Source: a virus. Taken from it: a DNA stretch of 53,656 bases. The translations under genes were made by a program, and so were the position numbers. The notes beneath the pieces were generated by a model. That model did not search any database. It was not told the DNA's origin and saw only the letters and a program-made list of their open reading frames with translations. The stretch lies in the IMG/VR virus record IMGVR_UViG_3300023181_000009, positions 1 through 53,656 of that record. One strand, written 5' to 3'. Shown here one piece after another: positions 35,038-41,060 of the stretch (the stretch's first letter is position 1; each line of letters starts with the position of its first letter).

Positions 35038-35751
35038 TTATTTGTTTTTTTGGTTATATTTTTTAATTATAAAATCAATGCCTTTTTGATACACTACAGT
35101 TTTAAGGCTGATATTCACGCTGCCATCGGGTTTATTATATTTGCTTTCTATAACCCTGAAATAACCCGCGTCGATATATGTTTGATAAGGGGTGTTATTT
35201 TCGCGTAGTATTGATATATCCCTTAAGAACTCAAACAGTTTATTCCTACCTACACCTAAATTACAAACTTTAGCAACGTCCACCATATCAAATGCATCTT
35301 TACTGCCTGTTACCTGTTCGTAAAACTCAACCTTTGGTTTATTATCTTCTAATAACTTTTGTTGAGCCTCGATTTGTTCAGCTTGTTTAGCCGCCAACAT
35401 TAAAGCTTCTGAAAATGTTTGTGGTAAAGTGTGATTTTTAGACTTTAATTCTTTTTCGCATTGAATAAAGTATTGCCTTGCTATCTTACCTTTTTCAGTC
35501 CTGTGTATCATAGATATTTCTTTTGCCATATCTAAGTTAAAGGCATAATCTATAATATCAATTCTGCCGCCTTTTAAGTTGTCGTCTTTTTTGGAAACAA
35601 CCTCAATGTAGTCTTTACCCTCAGTAAACCCATACTCAAACATTCTTTTACACCATTTTGTAAATTCTGTTTTAATTTCTAAAAATTTGTGCAATTCTCT
35701 TGCTGAAATAACACCACCACTTTCGTTGTGCTTAATATTTATTAGTTCCAT
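35038..35751 (-). CDS. AntA/KilAC antirepressor (237 aa)
   Basis: Residues about 15-95 are the AntA/AntB domain (I-S-A-R-E-L-H-K-F-L, F-x-x-W-C-K-R, D-Y-I-E-V, L-D-M-A-K-E-I-S-M-I), and residues about 125-232 are the KilAC domain (F-Y-E-Q-V-T-G-S, V-A-K-V-C-N, F-E-F-L-R-D, P-Y-Q-T-Y-I-D-A-G-Y-F). Such proteins bind and neutralise phage repressors. Its mRNA leader ends in a pseudoknotted terminator just 12 bases before the ATG, so expression is likely set by attenuation, comparable in outline to RNA control of ant genes in P1 and P22. Confidence 0.85.
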   Translation of the reverse strand: MELINIKHNESGGVISARELHKFLEIKTEFTKWCKRMFEYGFTEGKDYIEVVSKKDDNLKGGRIDIIDYAFNLDMAKEISMIHRTEKGKIARQYFIQCEKELKSKNHTLPQTFSEALMLAAKQAEQIEAQQKLLEDNKPKVEFYEQVTGSKDAFDMVDVAKVCNLGVGRNKLFEFLRDISILRENNTPYQTYIDAGYFRVIESKYNKPDGSVNISLKTVVYQKGIDFIIKKYNQKNK

Positions 35752-35763
35752 AAAATATAAAAA

Positions 35764-35838
35764 CCCTTGAAATCCGAGGTCGTAGGCTCTTCATTCAAGG
35801 GAATTTTAATAATGTTTTTATTTGTAGCTACGACTCTA
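35764..35838 (-). ncRNA. Pseudoknot-terminator leader of the antirepressor gene
   Basis: On the minus strand the RNA starts near 35838 with the element GTCGTAG (35834-35828), followed by CTAC and an A-rich spacer. Then comes a terminator stem of eight perfect pairs (35794-35801 with 35764-35771) and a T-rich tail up to the ATG. The loop holds CTACGAC (35785-35779), perfectly complementary to the 5' element. A homologous element lies at 40974-41038. Confidence 0.7.
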
Positions 35839-35844
35839 CGAATA

Positions 35845-35877
35845 CAAATATATAAAAAGATTCATTACTTTAGCAAA
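35845..35877 (-). promoter_or_regulatory. Promoter of the antirepressor operon
   Basis: On the minus strand TTTG (35877-35874) is followed after 21 bp by TATATTTG (35852-35845), a close match to the Bacteroidota consensus. The 35864-35882 palindrome covers the -33 element. Confidence 0.65.
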
Positions 35878-35882
35878 GTAAT
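35864..35882. promoter_or_regulatory. Operator-like palindrome over the antirepressor promoter
   Basis: ATTACTTTAGCAAAGTAAT is a perfect 8-3-8 inverted repeat. It overlaps the -33 region of the leftward promoter and could block it when a dimer binds. Confidence 0.55.
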
Positions 35883-35907
35883 TTTCATGTAATAAGTTTT
35901 AAGGGGT

Positions 35908-35937
35908 AAAAACCGTGTAGCAATGCACGGTTTTTTT
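35908..35937. terminator. Strong bidirectional terminator
   Basis: AAAAACCGTG pairs with CACGGTTTTT around an eight-base loop, with seven T rightward and five T leftward. No rightward gene precedes it after 34240, so it ends either a short rightward RNA starting near 35875 or leftward transcripts coming from 36651. Confidence 0.75.
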
Positions 35938-35956
35938 GTTTGTATACGATATCATC

Positions 35957-35993
35957 CTAAAAATAGTATGGTTTCGTGCTAAAAATAGTATGG
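35957..35993. repeat. Tandem direct repeat upstream of the spanin promoter
   Basis: CTAAAAATAGTATGG occurs at 35957-35971 and 35979-35993, period 22 bp (two helical turns), about 40-70 bp upstream of the -7 element at 36029. Suggests two copies of a protein-binding site, possibly for a late activator. Confidence 0.6.
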
Positions 35994-36028
35994 CTTAATG
36001 GTAATATTATTTTGTTTAAGTATTTGAC

Positions 36029-36036
36029 TACCTTTG
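36029..36036 (+). promoter_or_regulatory. Spanin promoter (TACCTTTG)
   Basis: TACCTTTG, the same octamer as the endolysin promoter; TTTG at 36011-36014 lies 14 bp upstream, shorter than the usual spacing. Confidence 0.55.
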
Positions 36037-36057
36037 TTTAAACTAAAAAACAATATT

Positions 36058-36552
36058 ATGAAACGATTATTACTAACCATTTTGTTGACGATAACAATAT
36101 GGTCGTTAACATCCTGCGATATACAAAAGCAAGCATCAAAGACTAAAACCGATACGGACTTTAAAGAGCAAATAGAAACTACTGAAAAACGTGATGGTGG
36201 TATTGCTACATATATTCCACCGGCAAACATAGTTTATAGAGATACGACAATTTACGTACAAGGAACTAACGGCACGCAGCTTAAGGTAATATACGATAAA
36301 CAAGGAATAATTCAACAGGCAGACTGTAATGCAGCTTTAATCGAAGTTATTACAAAGTACAATAGCCAATTATTACAAACTACTAAGGAAAAAGAGAAAA
36401 CTAAGACAGAGGAATTTAATACAACATGGGTATTATACCTAATTGGGGGCGTTGTGTTGATGTTTTCTATAGTAATATTCCTTATGTACCGTACTATAAA
36501 TAAAAATTCCGATAACGTTGCGGAATTGATTAATGCTATTAAAAATAAATAA
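36058..36552 (+). CDS. Probable unimolecular spanin (164 aa)
   Basis: N-terminal lipoprotein signal with lipobox L-T-S-C (Cys 20), a mature region of about 100 residues rich in charged helix (E-K-E-K-T-K-T-E-E), and a single C-terminal transmembrane helix (about 123-143) followed by 20 polar residues. Outer-membrane lipid anchor plus inner-membrane helix in one chain is the defining topology of u-spanins such as T1 gp11, which fuse the two membranes after peptidoglycan is degraded. It stands alone on the plus strand, with its own promoter and terminator. I take ATG 36058; a TTG at 36034 lies within the promoter. Confidence 0.75.
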   Translation: MKRLLLTILLTITIWSLTSCDIQKQASKTKTDTDFKEQIETTEKRDGGIATYIPPANIVYRDTTIYVQGTNGTQLKVIYDKQGIIQQADCNAALIEVITKYNSQLLQTTKEKEKTKTEEFNTTWVLYLIGGVVLMFSIVIFLMYRTINKNSDNVAELINAIKNK

Positions 36553-36617
36553 GTATATTTACACCCTATTGTTTTTTTGTTATTTTCTATTCAAACTATT
36601 TATTGTTTTTTGTCTTT

Positions 36618-36654
36618 AGTCCCGAAGTACTCCCATGCTTCGGGACTTTTTTAT
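36618..36654 (+). terminator. Terminator after spanin gene
   Basis: AGTCCCGAAG pairs with CTTCGGGACT (stem 36618-36627 with 36638-36647), followed by six T. No T-run on the minus strand, so it is directional. Confidence 0.85.
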
Positions 36655-36848
36655 TTCCTCTTTTTCTTTTTAGGTTTTAAATGTGTCATTTTATTTCTAA
36701 TCTTACCACTACCTTTAGTTTCTATAGCTTTTAAAGATTCAATAATTGCATTAGAAGTTTCAATTATACTTTCTACAATTCGGCTTTCTTTAGCATACCT
36801 ATCTATTTCGCATAAATAAGGGTTCTCATAATTTCCTTTACTACTCAT
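36651..36848 (-). CDS. Small hypothetical protein with basic tail (65 aa)
   Basis: A helical body (about residues 15-45) with an end made almost entirely of Lys/Arg (K-P-K-K-K-K-R-K). The tail could bind nucleic acid. The stop lies at the foot of the spanin terminator. Confidence 0.6.
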   Translation of the reverse strand: MSSKGNYENPYLCEIDRYAKESRIVESIIETSNAIIESLKAIETKGSGKIRNKMTHLKPKKKKRK

Positions 36849-36866
36849 AATTAAATGGTTTTTATT

Positions 36867-36968
36867 TTATATTTTATGTGCAGCTATAATTAAAGCTATT
36901 CCTAAAAATAATGCAAATATTATTAACGCGCAGCCGGAAGCATCTGGACCTATTTTATTTTTACTCAT
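36867..36968 (-). CDS. Very small membrane protein (33 aa)
   Basis: One transmembrane helix at about residues 12-29 (CALIIFALFLGIALIIAA). The ATG overlaps the stop of the upstream gene (ATGA), which supports real translation. Confidence 0.55.
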   Translation of the reverse strand: MSKNKIGPDASGCALIIFALFLGIALIIAAHKI

Positions 36969-37153
36969 GACATTTTATCTTTATTGATTAATTTAAGGTT
37001 TTCGGCATCGTAATCGCGTTTCATGGCATCTTTATAATCTGATATTTTAACGGTTATATACCAGTATATATTTAGCAATATAAATCCCCATGCTATAATT
37101 CCGCTAATTATTAAGAAACGCCAGTACCATGATAGGTTTGTTAGTTCATCCAT
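36965..37153 (-). CDS. Small membrane protein (62 aa)
   Basis: Transmembrane helix at about residues 11-35, then a charged helix (KISDYKDAMKRDYDAENLKL). Start overlaps the upstream gene by eight bases. Unknown role. Confidence 0.6.
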   Translation of the reverse strand: MDELTNLSWYWRFLIISGIIAWGFILLNIYWYITVKISDYKDAMKRDYDAENLKLINKDKMS

Positions 37154-37535
37154 GTTTGTATAATTTAAGTAGTTGTGTGACCTTTAAAAGCTTTCTTGAT
37201 AGTTCTTCATGTTCTCTTTCCAATGTTTTAATGAATAGCTCATTATTATCAATTTCCTGTAAAGCTTTTAAACTGCTTATACCGCCATCATCTATTACTT
37301 CAATAAATTCTTTACTTGCTTTTATGGGTTTTAATTCTTCTTTATAGCCAATATGTAGATTGTGAAATGAAGCAAACTTTTCTAACTGGGTATAAACTTC
37401 GTTATCGTCTACATGGTTTTTATAAACACCCGATTCCTTCGCTTTGCCTATTAAAAACTTTCGGTCTTTAGTTCCGTATCGCTCAATAATAGACTTTAGC
37501 AATTCTCTTTTTATAGCTGTTGATTTATCTTCCAT
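37146..37535 (-). CDS. Hypothetical protein with C-terminal coiled coil (129 aa)
   Basis: N-terminal part basic with a R-Y-G-T-K-D-R-K-F pattern; residues about 97-127 form a coiled coil (LEREHEELSRKLLKVTQLL). Overlaps the AP2-like gene by 11 bases. Confidence 0.6.
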   Translation of the reverse strand: MEDKSTAIKRELLKSIIERYGTKDRKFLIGKAKESGVYKNHVDDNEVYTQLEKFASFHNLHIGYKEELKPIKASKEFIEVIDDGGISSLKALQEIDNNELFIKTLEREHEELSRKLLKVTQLLKLYKHG

Positions 37536-37968
37536 TCATTTTACTTTCTAATGTTATTTCGCTAAATTCAAAGTAAGGCTTTTTAGGCTTTTTATGTATT
37601 GGGTATATAGGGTTTAAATTTATCTTGTCAATTACAGATCTTTTATAATAAAGGTTATAATTATATCTGTAAGGTTTTAGCTTTATTTGAAAAACTATGT
37701 GTTTGGCCTGTGAAACATTTACTCCTAAAACCTTTGATACTTTGTGTATAGAATAGTCATCAGTAAGTAATTTAAAATTAACCGCTTCTAATCCTATATC
37801 AACTCTTCTAACATCATAAGATTTGGCTGCTTTTATTTCTGTATCGCAAAACCTTGAAACCCATCTTACCCCTGTAAATACATGCATTGCGTACCATCTT
37901 TCTTTAATTACGCCTCTATATTTAATAATCTTAAAATATACACCTCTATAAATTAATGATTTTGGCAT
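37525..37968 (-). CDS. AP2-like DNA-binding domain protein (147 aa)
   Basis: Residues about 8-68 follow the AP2/ERF plan: Y-R-G-V at the start, W-Y-A-M-H on a strand, a D-T-E-I-K-A-A-K-S-Y-D helix, and ending in A-V-N-F. AP2 domains occur in phage homing endonucleases, next to HNH modules, but here no nuclease motif is visible; the second half is basic and contains a helix-turn-helix-like segment (K-V-L-G-V-N-V-S-Q-A-K-H-I-V). A DNA-binding regulator or nuclease remnant. Confidence 0.65.
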   Translation of the reverse strand: MPKSLIYRGVYFKIIKYRGVIKERWYAMHVFTGVRWVSRFCDTEIKAAKSYDVRRVDIGLEAVNFKLLTDDYSIHKVSKVLGVNVSQAKHIVFQIKLKPYRYNYNLYYKRSVIDKINLNPIYPIHKKPKKPYFEFSEITLESKMNGR

Positions 37969-37970
37969 AC

Positions 37971-38156
37971 TTAATAAACTATTAAACTTAAAAGCAATAA
38001 TAAAGCCGATACAGCCGTAAACACAAATGAGAAGCGCATATCTTCAAGTGTTGCGCCTTTTGTCCTGTATGCTCCTATAAATAAGCCTAAGCCTATTATA
38101 AAAGCAACCACTAATGCTAACTTAAGCATTAGTGGACTGTTTACTATAAGTTCCAT
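37971..38156 (-). CDS. Small membrane protein (61 aa)
   Basis: Two transmembrane helices (about 9-29 and 42-60) with a short charged loop. Its ATG overlaps the upstream stop (TAATG). Confidence 0.6.
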   Translation of the reverse strand: MELIVNSPLMLKLALVVAFIIGLGLFIGAYRTKGATLEDMRFSFVFTAVSALLLLLSLIVY

Positions 38157-38296
38157 TATGGATTAAGTGTTTTTAATGTGGATATAGCAATATTCATAGC
38201 TTCTGTTAAATCTCGTGGATGTGTCATAGGTATTTCAGCACCCATACGCCAATTTTGATGCTTTTCTAAAATCCTAATTTCTTGTTTTAAGTCCAT
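38156..38296 (-). CDS. Small hypothetical protein (46 aa)
   Basis: Helical soluble protein, too short for routine calling but joined by a TAATG overlap to the next gene. Contains M-T-H-P-R-D-L-T-E-A-M. Confidence 0.55.
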   Translation of the reverse strand: MDLKQEIRILEKHQNWRMGAEIPMTHPRDLTEAMNIAISTLKTLNP

Positions 38297-38299
38297 AAT

Positions 38300-38557
38300 T
38301 TAGTTAGTTAAATATACCGATAGGTTTTCTACAAATGGAACTGTTTTAATACCGCATTCTCTTTGGTATTCAGCACAACCAACACTGCCTGTAGAAAAGT
38401 CACTATTTTTTTTTGCTTTCAATACTACAGCAGTTTCACGAGTTAGCATATTATCATGCCACCCAATATATAATACTTCTTTAGTTAAAAAGTTTTGTAC
38501 CTTTTTATATTCTGCTTCGTTTGTAACTATTACAGAAATCCCTTTTTGTTTACTCAT
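38300..38557 (-). CDS. Hypothetical protein (85 aa)
   Basis: Small alpha/beta protein with a V-I-V-T-N strand start and two cysteines separated by six residues (C-A-E-Y-Q-R-E-C). Not recognised. Confidence 0.6.
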   Translation of the reverse strand: MSKQKGISVIVTNEAEYKKVQNFLTKEVLYIGWHDNMLTRETAVVLKAKKNSDFSTGSVGCAEYQRECGIKTVPFVENLSVYLTN

Positions 38558-38565
38558 GATTAATT

Positions 38566-38880
38566 CTATTTACAAGGTAATTTATTAATTTGTCTAACCT
38601 GTACGTATTTATCCCAACCCTTTGTTTCAAAGTTATAATTGTAATGTGTAGCAATTTCATAATGCTTACCATCGCTTGCTGTGCCTGAAATTACCGTGTC
38701 CATTCCATACTCTTCTCTGCAATGAACACCTATTTTAATAGTTCCTGTAGTTGTTGTAACAGTAAGCGTGTTATTAATTGTAGGCTGTGTGCCGGGACTT
38801 AAATTATTATCAAATCCAGTTTGTTGCGCGGTCATGTTTAATGCTGTAAATAGCATTGCTGTAATAAAAAGTGTTTTCAT
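38566..38880 (-). CDS. Secreted hypothetical protein (104 aa)
   Basis: Type I signal peptide (residues 1-18, cleavage after M-T-A). The mature part is Thr-rich and beta-structured with two cysteines. An exported protein in the leftward early operon is unusual and suggests action in the host periplasm. Confidence 0.65.
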   Translation of the reverse strand: MKTLFITAMLFTALNMTAQQTGFDNNLSPGTQPTINNTLTVTTTTGTIKIGVHCREEYGMDTVISGTASDGKHYEIATHYNYNFETKGWDKYVQVRQINKLPCK

Positions 38881-38882
38881 TA

Positions 38883-39011
38883 TTAATCGTTTTTAAATTG
38901 TTGATGTTGAAAGTAAAAAGCAAGAACCGCACTAATGAAAAGTAAAAAGGCTAAAAAGGCACATATAAAAATACATATTTCCTTTGCGTTTTTATATTCT
39001 AAGTTTGTCAT
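38883..39011 (-). CDS. Very small membrane protein (42 aa)
   Basis: A single long hydrophobic helix (about 11-33), preceded by a short polar N terminus and a polar Q/N-rich tail. Located between two genes with no other reading frame in that gap. Confidence 0.55.
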   Translation of the reverse strand: MTNLEYKNAKEICIFICAFLAFLLFISAVLAFYFQHQQFKND

Positions 39012-39013
39012 AA

Positions 39014-39826
39014 TTAATCGTTTTTCAGCGTTATTGGTTCGCCTTTGTATAGTTTAAAATCTGATTTATCAAAAGAATCATATTCTCCGTGTCTTAAATT
39101 AGTGTAATCAGGAGATGTATAAATCATAGTTCCAAGAAACTTATCATAGTATTGATTTCCGATTGGATTACTCAAAACTAAATACGGTTTTCCATGACCC
39201 TTATGTTCAAGTATATTTGATTTAGACCAATCTATACTTTCAGGTTCTTTGGCGTGTTCATTTTCCTTAAGCACTAAGCGTTTAAAGTCTTCGGTGGATA
39301 GTAAAATATAATCTTCTTTTTTGCGGAAAGTAGTTTCTAAACCGCTTGTTACGTAAATAATAGGATGTTTTTCGGATCTATCTATATAATCGTAAATATT
39401 GGTGTTTACCCACTCTATAATTTCATAGTTATCAGCTTTAACACACCACTTTTCAGGCAATTCAGTAAGTTCTTTATTTACCGGCGCATCGTTACAATTA
39501 GCTACTTCATCAGTATTAACTTCAATGTTGTTTATTTCCTGCATAAAATCAGATCCTTTTTCCAATATATTAATCTTACGTTCAAGTGCCTTTACACGCT
39601 TGTTTAATGAGGGTTTAAGAAACTTTGAAGCAGAAAATATACAATATGTGTTTGGTATAGAAACAACAAGAGTAAAATTATATTCAGCGTGTTTAATAGC
39701 GTAAAAACCATGCTTAAACTTTGGATTATATCCGTATGTGTCTTTAAATAATTTATTTATACCCTTAGCCTCTTTTTTAGTTTTGATGTGTATAACATCA
39801 TTTGGTTTTAAATCTGTAATTTTCAT
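39014..39826 (-). CDS. Hypothetical protein (270 aa)
   Basis: The longest unrecognised protein of the leftward block. It has an alpha/beta N-terminal domain, a short coiled coil (about 82-96), a middle domain with a W-C-V-K strand and a C-terminal domain. It looks modular but I can assign none of it. Confidence 0.65.
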   Translation of the reverse strand: MKITDLKPNDVIHIKTKKEAKGINKLFKDTYGYNPKFKHGFYAIKHAEYNFTLVVSIPNTYCIFSASKFLKPSLNKRVKALERKINILEKGSDFMQEINNIEVNTDEVANCNDAPVNKELTELPEKWCVKADNYEIIEWVNTNIYDYIDRSEKHPIIYVTSGLETTFRKKEDYILLSTEDFKRLVLKENEHAKEPESIDWSKSNILEHKGHGKPYLVLSNPIGNQYYDKFLGTMIYTSPDYTNLRHGEYDSFDKSDFKLYKGEPITLKND

Positions 39827-39836
39827 TGTTTTTGTT

Positions 39837-40034
39837 TTAAGTGTTTTTATAACTGTGAAATCCTTTTTGAAAGCTGCTGTAAGTCCATCCTTTAATTTGT
39901 TTCATATATATAAATGCTTTAAATGTCATTTGCCTAACCATTATTATATCGTCTTTAAAAGCTACTACATCAACTATAGTTTCAGCAGGTGTTTTTAAAA
40001 ATAGATGGTCTTTGTTAGCTTTTGGTAGTGCCAT
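39837..40034 (-). CDS. Small hypothetical protein (65 aa)
   Basis: Basic small protein with V-V-A-F-K-D-D-I-I-M-V-R-Q strands. Overlaps the upstream gene by 20 bases. Not recognised. Confidence 0.6.
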   Translation of the reverse strand: MALPKANKDHLFLKTPAETIVDVVAFKDDIIMVRQMTFKAFIYMKQIKGWTYSSFQKGFHSYKNT

Positions 40035-40311
40035 TACATCTGTTTATTTCATGTTTAATGTGATTTATAGACCTCCAACATGCATTAAATCCATTAGGTG
40101 TTTTACCTTTGTCATCTAATATATTAAACACAGCATCCTTATTTTTGTTTTGTGCCATTAAAACCCATAACCCTTTATATTTAAAATGAATATTACCATA
40201 GTATAAATCCTTTTTAGGTAGCCCATCATTAAGCATATCAATAAGGATATTTGCATTCTCAATAACAATAGATTCATCAAACGCATCTAAAAGGTTTAAC
40301 TGGGAACTCAT
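40015..40311 (-). CDS. Hypothetical protein (98 aa)
   Basis: Starts M-S-S-Q-L-N-L-L-D-A-F, helical, ending in a basic Cys-containing helix. Coupled to both neighbours by short overlaps. Function unknown. Confidence 0.6.
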   Translation of the reverse strand: MSSQLNLLDAFDESIVIENANILIDMLNDGLPKKDLYYGNIHFKYKGLWVLMAQNKNKDAVFNILDDKGKTPNGFNACWRSINHIKHEINRCNGTTKS

Positions 40312-40622
40312 CTTTTAATTGTTCCGTTTAAATATTCCGTTATTTCTTCTTTGGTAAAAGTTACATCCGAATCAAATCCATCTTTTAATACGAATATGTC
40401 GGTAATTGTTATAGTTTCTATTTCTGAAATGTCGTAATCTAAAAAATCATCATAAATTTCATATACAGTATTAACTTTAACTTCAACATCAATGTAAACA
40501 CATAACTCATATTCGTTATATATTCCAGTTAAAGATAAACTTTGCTTTTCCAAGTTATTGTTATCGAAAACCTCGTTTATATCTTCAAGGTTCTTAAGTA
40601 GGTTTTGTTTTATAGTTTGCAT
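40308..40622 (-). CDS. Hypothetical protein (104 aa)
   Basis: Acidic alpha/beta protein. I place the start at ATG 40622, directly after the stop of the yopX-like gene; the longer frame would overlap that gene. Not recognised. Confidence 0.6.
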   Translation of the reverse strand: MQTIKQNLLKNLEDINEVFDNNNLEKQSLSLTGIYNEYELCVYIDVEVKVNTVYEIYDDFLDYDISEIETITITDIFVLKDGFDSDVTFTKEEITEYLNGTIKR

Positions 40623-40626
40623 AACC

Positions 40627-40962
40627 TTAATTTTTATCGTGAATAGTACCAACCACTTCTAACCATTTTTCGCAGTCCTTCAATTCCTGAACTTCAACGC
40701 ATGGGAATCTAATTACAAATTGGCAAGTGTCCTGATACCATTCTATAACACCACCATCTTTGCTTTTATCTCCTACATAAACATCTTTGCCGTTAATGTC
40801 TTTTTTGCCTGTGAATTGCATTAATTCAAGTTGATAGTAATCTCCATCAGTATCAAATTTACCTGCATGAAATCCATTATCCTTCTCGTACTTTATTTTA
40901 AACTGACCAACGTAAAGCATTTTATTATTTAGCTTATCAAACGCCCTAAACTTAATGTCCAT
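40627..40962 (-). CDS. yopX: YopX family protein (111 aa)
   Basis: The N terminus K-F-R-A-F-D, the central Q-F-T-G-K-K-D-I-N-G-K-D-V-Y-V-G-D and the C-terminal E-V-V-G-T-I-H-D are the YopX signature. YopX proteins are common in phage early regions; their role is unknown. The gene is preceded by a pseudoknot-terminator leader homologous to that of the antirepressor gene. Confidence 0.85.
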   Translation of the reverse strand: MDIKFRAFDKLNNKMLYVGQFKIKYEKDNGFHAGKFDTDGDYYQLELMQFTGKKDINGKDVYVGDKSKDGGVIEWYQDTCQFVIRFPCVEVQELKDCEKWLEVVGTIHDKN

Positions 40963-40973
40963 AAAAATAAAAA

Positions 40974-41038
40974 CCCCAAAAGCAACGGTGGTAGTCGAAT
41001 ACTTAAGGGGAATTTGTTATACTGTTAGTAGCTACCAC
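40974..41038 (-). ncRNA. Pseudoknot-terminator leader of the yopX gene
   Basis: On the minus strand GTGGTAG (41038-41032) is followed by CTAC, an A-rich spacer and AATTCCCC, then a terminator stem (41007-41010 with 40974-40977, plus three pairs after a 2x2 internal loop) and a T-rich tail. The loop contains CTACCAC (40994-40988), complementary to the 5' element, 37 bases away. The upstream gene ends at 41061, and no clear promoter lies between. Confidence 0.7.
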
Positions 41039-41060
41039 ACTACATTTATAACTTTTAAAA

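Follow-up and report, generated by a model that had tools for sequence, protein, structure and literature searches.

The question raised by this locus is which structure two similar leader RNAs of one phage adopt, and what that structure does in front of the genes that follow. The stretch analysed here, hereafter the window, comprises 53,656 nucleotides (nt; positions 1 to 53,656) of the IMG/VR virus record IMGVR_UViG_3300023181_000009. An earlier note, made from the sequence alone, described the two leaders as homologous elements in which a 5' heptamer pairs with the loop of a terminator, forming an H-type pseudoknot, and suggested a phage-specific attenuation switch before an antirepressor and a YopX gene. 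In the sequence, both leaders lie on the minus strand where that note had placed them. Their heptamer complements are exact (GTCGTAG/CTACGAC and GTGGTAG/CTACCAC), and heptamer position 3 differs between the two leaders and is altered on both sides. The place of the elements stands, but their start lies 1–5 nt earlier (35839 and 41043), at the GTAG that closes the first hairpin; the motif common to both leaders, this conserved GTAG included, is GTAGNGTNGTAGCTAC. The gene assignments were borne out by Pfam (AntA and KilAC, E 3.5e-24 and 1.3e-26; YopX, E 4.4e-13).

Two hairpins joined by their loops

As its covariation predicts, the leader is an intramolecular kissing complex, in which the loop of a 5' hairpin (HP1) pairs over 7 nt with the loop of a downstream hairpin (HP2). 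In the window leaders HP1 has four base pairs, with GTAG/CTAC closing an 8-nt loop of one base plus the heptamer. In HP2 an internal loop separates the outer stem from a short inner stem, which closes an 8-nt loop; the final seven nucleotides of this loop complement the HP1 heptamer. The same plan holds for the family: a 4-bp HP1 with a loop that is usually A plus 7 nt, an A-rich linker, and HP2 with a loop again usually of A plus 7 nt, the two heptamers being exact complements. In the heptamer, positions 3, 5 and 6 vary, whereas G, T, G and G are almost invariant at positions 1, 2, 4 and 7. Each loop opens with an unpaired base, an A in 94 of 112 leaders for HP1 and in 89 of 112 for HP2. The internal loop of HP2 has GA on both sides in 77/112 leaders and AGTA/GAAA in 23/112, these classes overlapping slightly. 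The kiss amounts to about -9 kcal/mol, computed as a free duplex.

In an alignment (A2) of 85 sequences and 21 pairs, 94.1% of the cells are paired and double changes occur at 19 of the 21 pairs. Its covariation score is 0.578, compared with 0.162 +/- 0.008 for shuffled and at most 0.096 for slid controls. HP1 is paired in 99.1% and the kissing helix in 100%, the latter figure coming largely from row selection. Because HP1 covaries, the H-type pseudoknot has to be replaced by kissing hairpins: the 5' partner sits within the loop of a covarying 4-bp hairpin. Since the rows were mostly matches chosen for an exact heptamer complement, the kissing columns are not independent proof. Independent proof is provided by scans of IMG/VR with patterns on the HP2 flanks, which left the 8-nt loop fully free and HP1 unconstrained. 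For one sub-type, 82 of 91 distinct sites have an exact upstream heptamer complement (control, 0), and HP1 is formed with four of four pairs in 75 of them and three of four in 7. Eight of the nine misses resemble unrelated DNA, and in the ninth (L336) one G-U pair is the sole departure. For the second sub-type, 24 sites carrying the complement were obtained, and a 4-bp HP1 is present in every one. A descriptor of the leader shape matched 192 times in the fetched loci and 3 times in block-shuffled copies; together with the 82 paired sites this argues that the pairing is not due to chance. The claim that loop pairing is kept by covariation thus has very strong support.

Distribution in phages

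The two window leaders are members of an extensive family of 5' leader RNAs in phages of the Flavobacteriaceae and their relatives. A wide search across IMG/VR and phage records recovered kept pairing in many other phage copies, clearly the opposite of the outcome that the earlier note named as a refutation; the view of a phage-specific structured leader is supported. A strict pattern matched in 8 IMG/VR contigs. The motif alone gave at least 118 matches, and among the matches listed an exact downstream complement was found in 38 of 124 sites read, one by chance, a set that counts the window leaders twice. A covariance model built from 25 sequences, containing HP1 and HP2 with the kissing pairs left out, was applied to entire phage records and brought up additional copies not imposed by the pattern. 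In all nine of its matches examined at E <=4e-4 the 7-nt kissing complement is exact. The heptamers are GTAGTAG, GTGGTCG, GTAGGAG, ATTGGAG, GTCGGAC, GTAGAGG, GTGGTAG, CTGGTAG and ATGCAAG, and the HP1 stems of these matches include TAGG/CCTA, ATAG/CTAT, TTGG/CCAA and ATCG/CGAT.

With a flexible descriptor (promoter box, HP1, 7–9-nt kiss, HP2 and T tract) we obtained 140 distinct matches vs 1 in shuffled sequence. Outside the common heptamer class fall 36 of them, a few of which are plainly chance matches in coding DNA. The same architecture seems to exist in several sequence-unrelated forms in these phages. Nine loci (L328, L123, L294, L079, L290, L321, L179, L366 and L368) show further leader types with the same plan of promoter, HP1, HP2 and T tract. 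Their stems are longer, their loops have 8–14 nt and their letters differ; a third hairpin is present in some, and some precede BT4734-like primase-type genes. A separate sub-type, at L051, L135, L207, L242 and related loci, has an AAGTA/GAAA internal loop in HP2 that resembles the bulged-G, loop E motif; here a common upstream AAAAAGTTGCTATTTATA replaces TAnnTTTG and perhaps represents another promoter class.

The leader also occurs in sequenced isolates, so experiments are possible. These are Flavobacterium phages such as hattifnatt9-1 (host Flavobacterium sp. LMO9), in which it precedes a PF07463 endonuclease, and the Polaribacter phages P12002L/S; in P12002L it precedes a replication protein. 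An origin in host genomes was considered and rejected. Among 295 genomes of the class of a Bacteroidetes metagenome-assembled genome, that genome itself was the only convincing match (the second had E 0.006), and about 85,000 genomes scanned with a pattern yielded 3 matches, of which one is real. Plasmids gave no match at E 0.01, nor did INPHARED when 10 kb of the window were searched against it for near-identity. The leaders make up a common, apparently undescribed regulatory RNA family in Flavobacteriaceae phages, backed by strong compensatory changes.

Loop diversity within genomes

As in plasmid incompatibility, leaders that reside together carry different kissing loops. No heptamer is repeated within any of 26 multi-copy records, which came from pattern scans and many of which are fragments. 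After removal of near-duplicates, none of the 36 within-genome pairs in 23 records is identical (permutation mean 4.88, P 0.005). With matching by flank similarity, 6.05 identical pairs are expected; the probability of finding none is 0.0006 if the pairs are independent, which they are not fully. L207 contains two leaders with 94% identical flanks that differ at five of seven loop positions, and in L318 the flanks are 92% identical with one compensated difference. When the HP1 heptamer (S1) of one window leader is paired with the HP2 heptamer (S1') of the other, the computed stability is 4.0 and 5.9 kcal/mol below that of cognate pairing. This orthogonality is a statistical result. The lack of shared heptamers is in line with cross-pairing being avoided, whether inside a single mRNA or from one RNA to another, or with a function in trans. 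Apparently, then, either mispairing between leaders is costly or trans pairing itself would be the control. Given that the loops diversify within genomes like plasmid incompatibility loops, natural leader series allow direct tests of RNA specificity and orthogonality.

Promoter box, U tract and start codon

A TAnnTTTG box ends 4–5 nt before HP1 in 64 of 112 leaders. The Flavobacterium box spans -12 to -5 (PMC9723704), and HP1 would therefore start at about +1 or +2. The other leaders, window leader 2 among them, have no TAnnTTTG at that place. The overlap with a terminator-like hairpin described in the earlier note is retained: directly 3' of HP2 lies a U tract, with a mean of 6.0 T in the next 8 nt (112 leaders). 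ATG follows HP2 after 7–24 nt in 94 of 106 leaders. Where HP2 and ATG are at least 14 nt apart (24 leaders), the T run adjoins HP2 and not ATG, and the context of ATG is A-rich. The second leader of L358 and those of L292 and L338 have promoter and T tract with no start codon and long frame close behind; they are candidates for orphan leaders or stand-alone small RNAs.

Proposed mechanism and alternatives

We consider it somewhat probable that the element attenuates transcription by means of its kissing hairpins and so holds down the expression of mobile or accessory genes. HP2 and the U tract would act as a weak intrinsic terminator, and the kiss would stack on HP2 and aid its formation before RNA polymerase has moved far away. 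Transcription would mostly end ahead of the gene, with protein made from read-through, so that mobile and accessory genes, mostly homing endonucleases, would be held at low dose although most have their own promoter. Whatever occupies HP1 or the loop of HP2, such as another leader RNA, a protein or a ribosome at the end of the preceding gene, would alter read-through, and the loops would be kept orthogonal as in plasmid incompatibility RNAs. Several points weigh against this proposal. The sequence is compatible with a kiss that raises termination as well as with one that lowers it. A standard terminator scan does not flag HP2, whose stem is interrupted, because the loop region is too long. The T run is displaced in a few leaders; L023 (L023:6654-6746) and L052 keep the kissing pairs and have no T run after HP2, and are possibly a non-terminating variant. 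An unregulated terminator before a gene also makes little sense, and no regulator was found. It is unlikely, though consistent with the diversified loops, that control acts in trans, with the terminated leader of a resident cassette kissing nascent leaders of the same loop and shutting them off. If so, homing cassettes with equal loops would be mutually exclusive within a phage or a co-infected cell, and compatible groups would arise, as in plasmids, when the loops diversify.

Part of the same evidence can be read in terms of translation. The kissing complex could shape ribosome access, with the U tract as an unstructured standby site and termination of minor importance, which we regard as unlikely. 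HP2 ends mostly 7–24 nt before the AUG, covering the region -11 to -14, in which A residues favour initiation in F. johnsoniae (PMC6847099). Position -12 is G in 63 of 109 leader genes and A in 36 of 50 other window genes, while -3 is T in 57/109 leader genes. T4-type homing genes are under translational control by RNA hairpins (PMC2988022), and L023 and L052, lacking the T run, would suit such a role. However, the start codon itself is not sequestered, and the T tract adjoins HP2 even with a distant ATG, a placement not needed for a translational role. The start of HP1 at about +1 or +2, as judged by promoter position, could instead indicate a stability element in which HP1 at the 5' end and the kiss shield the mRNA from 5'-dependent decay. 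This is improbable: the T tract directly after HP2 and the diversified loops are left unexplained, and window leader 2, with no clear promoter of its own, seems to lie inside an operon.

A riboswitch for a small molecule or a protein-binding leader would be in keeping with the conserved heptamer positions, the unpaired A and the GA/GA internal loops, and a ligand would account for a terminator before the gene. We nevertheless judge it very improbable, as divergent copies retain the pairing and not the sequence, most loop letters included, the genes share no common pathway and the loops differ within one genome. It is highly improbable that the inverted repeats act in the DNA, as an operator or a recombination or homing site, even though GTAGCTAC is palindromic and located at the promoter and the leader travels with cassettes. 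Covariation of HP1, HP2 and the kiss with different letters within one genome fits RNA pairing and not the site of one protein, and the cassette ends lie outside the leader in the junctions read. A pair of DNA operators was rejected on the grounds that the heptamers differ between copies of one genome and the stems covary.

Downstream genes and mobile cassettes

Among 96 downstream proteins, the Pfam domains HNH_3 (41), NUMOD4 (36), GIY-YIG (16) and AP2 (12) prevail. By an estimate from these counts, in which domains overlap within proteins, some 60% of the downstream genes would be of homing endonuclease type. BT4734-like primases occur twice, and AntA/KilAC, YopX, a DNA methylase, a helicase and a helix-turn-helix (HTH) protein are single cases. 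The genes of the window are therefore a minority, and the tie to antirepressor genes drawn from them does not extend to the family: of the 96 leaders, one precedes an AntA gene.

For 29 leader copies, which include several mutual near-duplicates, relatives with an empty site were recovered by an automated search. Where the limits are clear, the inserted DNA runs from 26–78 nt upstream of HP1 to about the end of the gene and comprises promoter, leader and gene; other cases have looser boundaries. Promoter, leader and endonuclease gene thus form an inserted unit, a mobile cassette, in several contigs. In L167 (G005:C1:11000-13500) and L305, promoter, leader and a NUMOD4/HNH gene lie within the 5' end of the gene for a helicase, immediately ahead of its Walker A motif. 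At its 3' end the cassette brings the missing first helicase codons in divergent form, starting in L167 inside the end of the endonuclease gene, so that the helicase frame is rebuilt (a home-and-rescue arrangement). In L361, about 717 nt after HP1, the cassette gives the next gene a new N-terminus, MEKSYSEILKGLE..., vs MTNYLDILNNIE... in the empty-site relative.

Features of the window

The elements of both leaders and their genes are listed in Table 1. In leader 1, HP2 has the outer stem CCCTTGAA / TTCAAGGG, a TGAA/GGAT internal loop, a GAG/CTC inner stem and the loop C[CTACGAC]; S1' is followed 3' by TTCAAGGG-TTTTTAT and then ATG at 35751 (minus strand). HP2 of leader 2 has a CCCC/GGGG outer stem, weaker inner pairs, CG/CG and the loop A[CTACCAC], and S1' is followed by GGGG-TTTTTATTTTT and then ATG at 40962 (minus strand). 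The sequence upstream of HP1 in leader 2 contains no clear TAnnTTTG box.

Table 1. Positions of the leader elements and downstream genes in the window.
Feature	Position	Strand	Detail and basis
Leader 1 -7 promoter box (TAnnTTTG), TATATTTG	35845..35852	-	ends 5 nt before HP1; sequence
Leader 1 HP1, GTAG-A[GTCGTAG]-CTAC	35824..35839	-	S1 35834-35828; sequence, covariation in 85 sequences
Leader 1 A-rich linker	35802..35823	-	sequence
Leader 1 HP2	35764..35801	-	S1' CTACGAC 35785-35779; sequence, HP2 fold, covariation
Leader 1 U tract, TTTTTATATTTT	35752..35763	-	reaches ATG; sequence
Gene behind leader 1, AntA/KilAC antirepressor, 237 amino acids	35038..35751	-	Pfam, PHROGs
Leader 2 HP1, GTAG-T[GTGGTAG]-CTAC	41028..41043	-	S1 41038-41032; sequence, covariation alignment
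Leader 2 linker	41011..41027	-	sequence
Leader 2 HP2	40974..41010	-	S1' CTACCAC 40994-40988; sequence, fold, covariation alignment
Leader 2 U tract, TTTTTATTTTT	40963..40973	-	reaches ATG; sequence
Gene behind leader 2, YopX protein, 111 amino acids	40627..40962	-	Pfam E 4.4e-13

Comparison with known systems

That no named RNA family fits the leaders agrees with Rfam 15, including Flavo-1 and the riboswitches, which gave 0 matches at or above the gathering threshold in the window and 15 other loci; with the limit relaxed to E 5, there was still none that covered a leader. In the literature (main texts, few subscription journals) we found no matching kissing-loop attenuator in Flavobacterium phages or structured-RNA screens. 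P1 c4 and P22 sar are phage antisense RNA regulators that act on antirepressor genes through complementary stretches. The leaders share with them phage RNA regulation by complementary stretches, whereas c4 and sar are antisense RNAs and no such partner was identified for the leaders, no systematic scan for opposite-strand promoters having been made. With no Rfam match and an antirepressor as just one of the 96 genes, the kinship to c4 or sar proposed in the earlier note is not upheld.

Closer likenesses are found in plasmids, from which the principle of a kissing leader or attenuator is known. The transcriptional attenuator of pT181 repC type (PMC4878617) has a 5' sensing hairpin, a downstream intrinsic terminator, hairpins with interior loops and specificity set by kissing loops. 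In contrast to the leaders, which kiss within one RNA, pT181 kisses a separate antisense RNA and has an anti-terminator strand. The repZ leader of IncI-alpha/IncB/IncK plasmids (ColIb-P9; cited in PMC10724649) has a 5' stem-loop (SLI) engaged in a pseudoknot ahead of the gene, and its incompatibility is set by kissing specificity; it governs the translation of a plasmid replication gene together with an antisense RNAI, whereas the leaders have a U tract and precede phage accessory genes. ColE1 RNAI/RNAII (PMC9458437) likewise shows complementary loops and specificity between co-resident copies, but the two are separate RNAs that act on primer formation. Control of T4-type homing endonucleases resembles the leaders in that RNA structure before phage homing genes limits expression (PMC2988022), and in seg43 of Aeromonas phage 25 a hairpin immediately precedes the ribosome binding site. 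In the T4-type systems a hairpin on early transcripts masks this site, with neither kissing loops nor a shared mobile leader family. What appears to be new is that a 5' hairpin and a terminator-like hairpin kiss within one RNA, in a leader that mobile phage cassettes carry and whose loops are orthogonal. The family thus joins kissing-loop RNA control, as known from plasmids, to mobile homing endonucleases.

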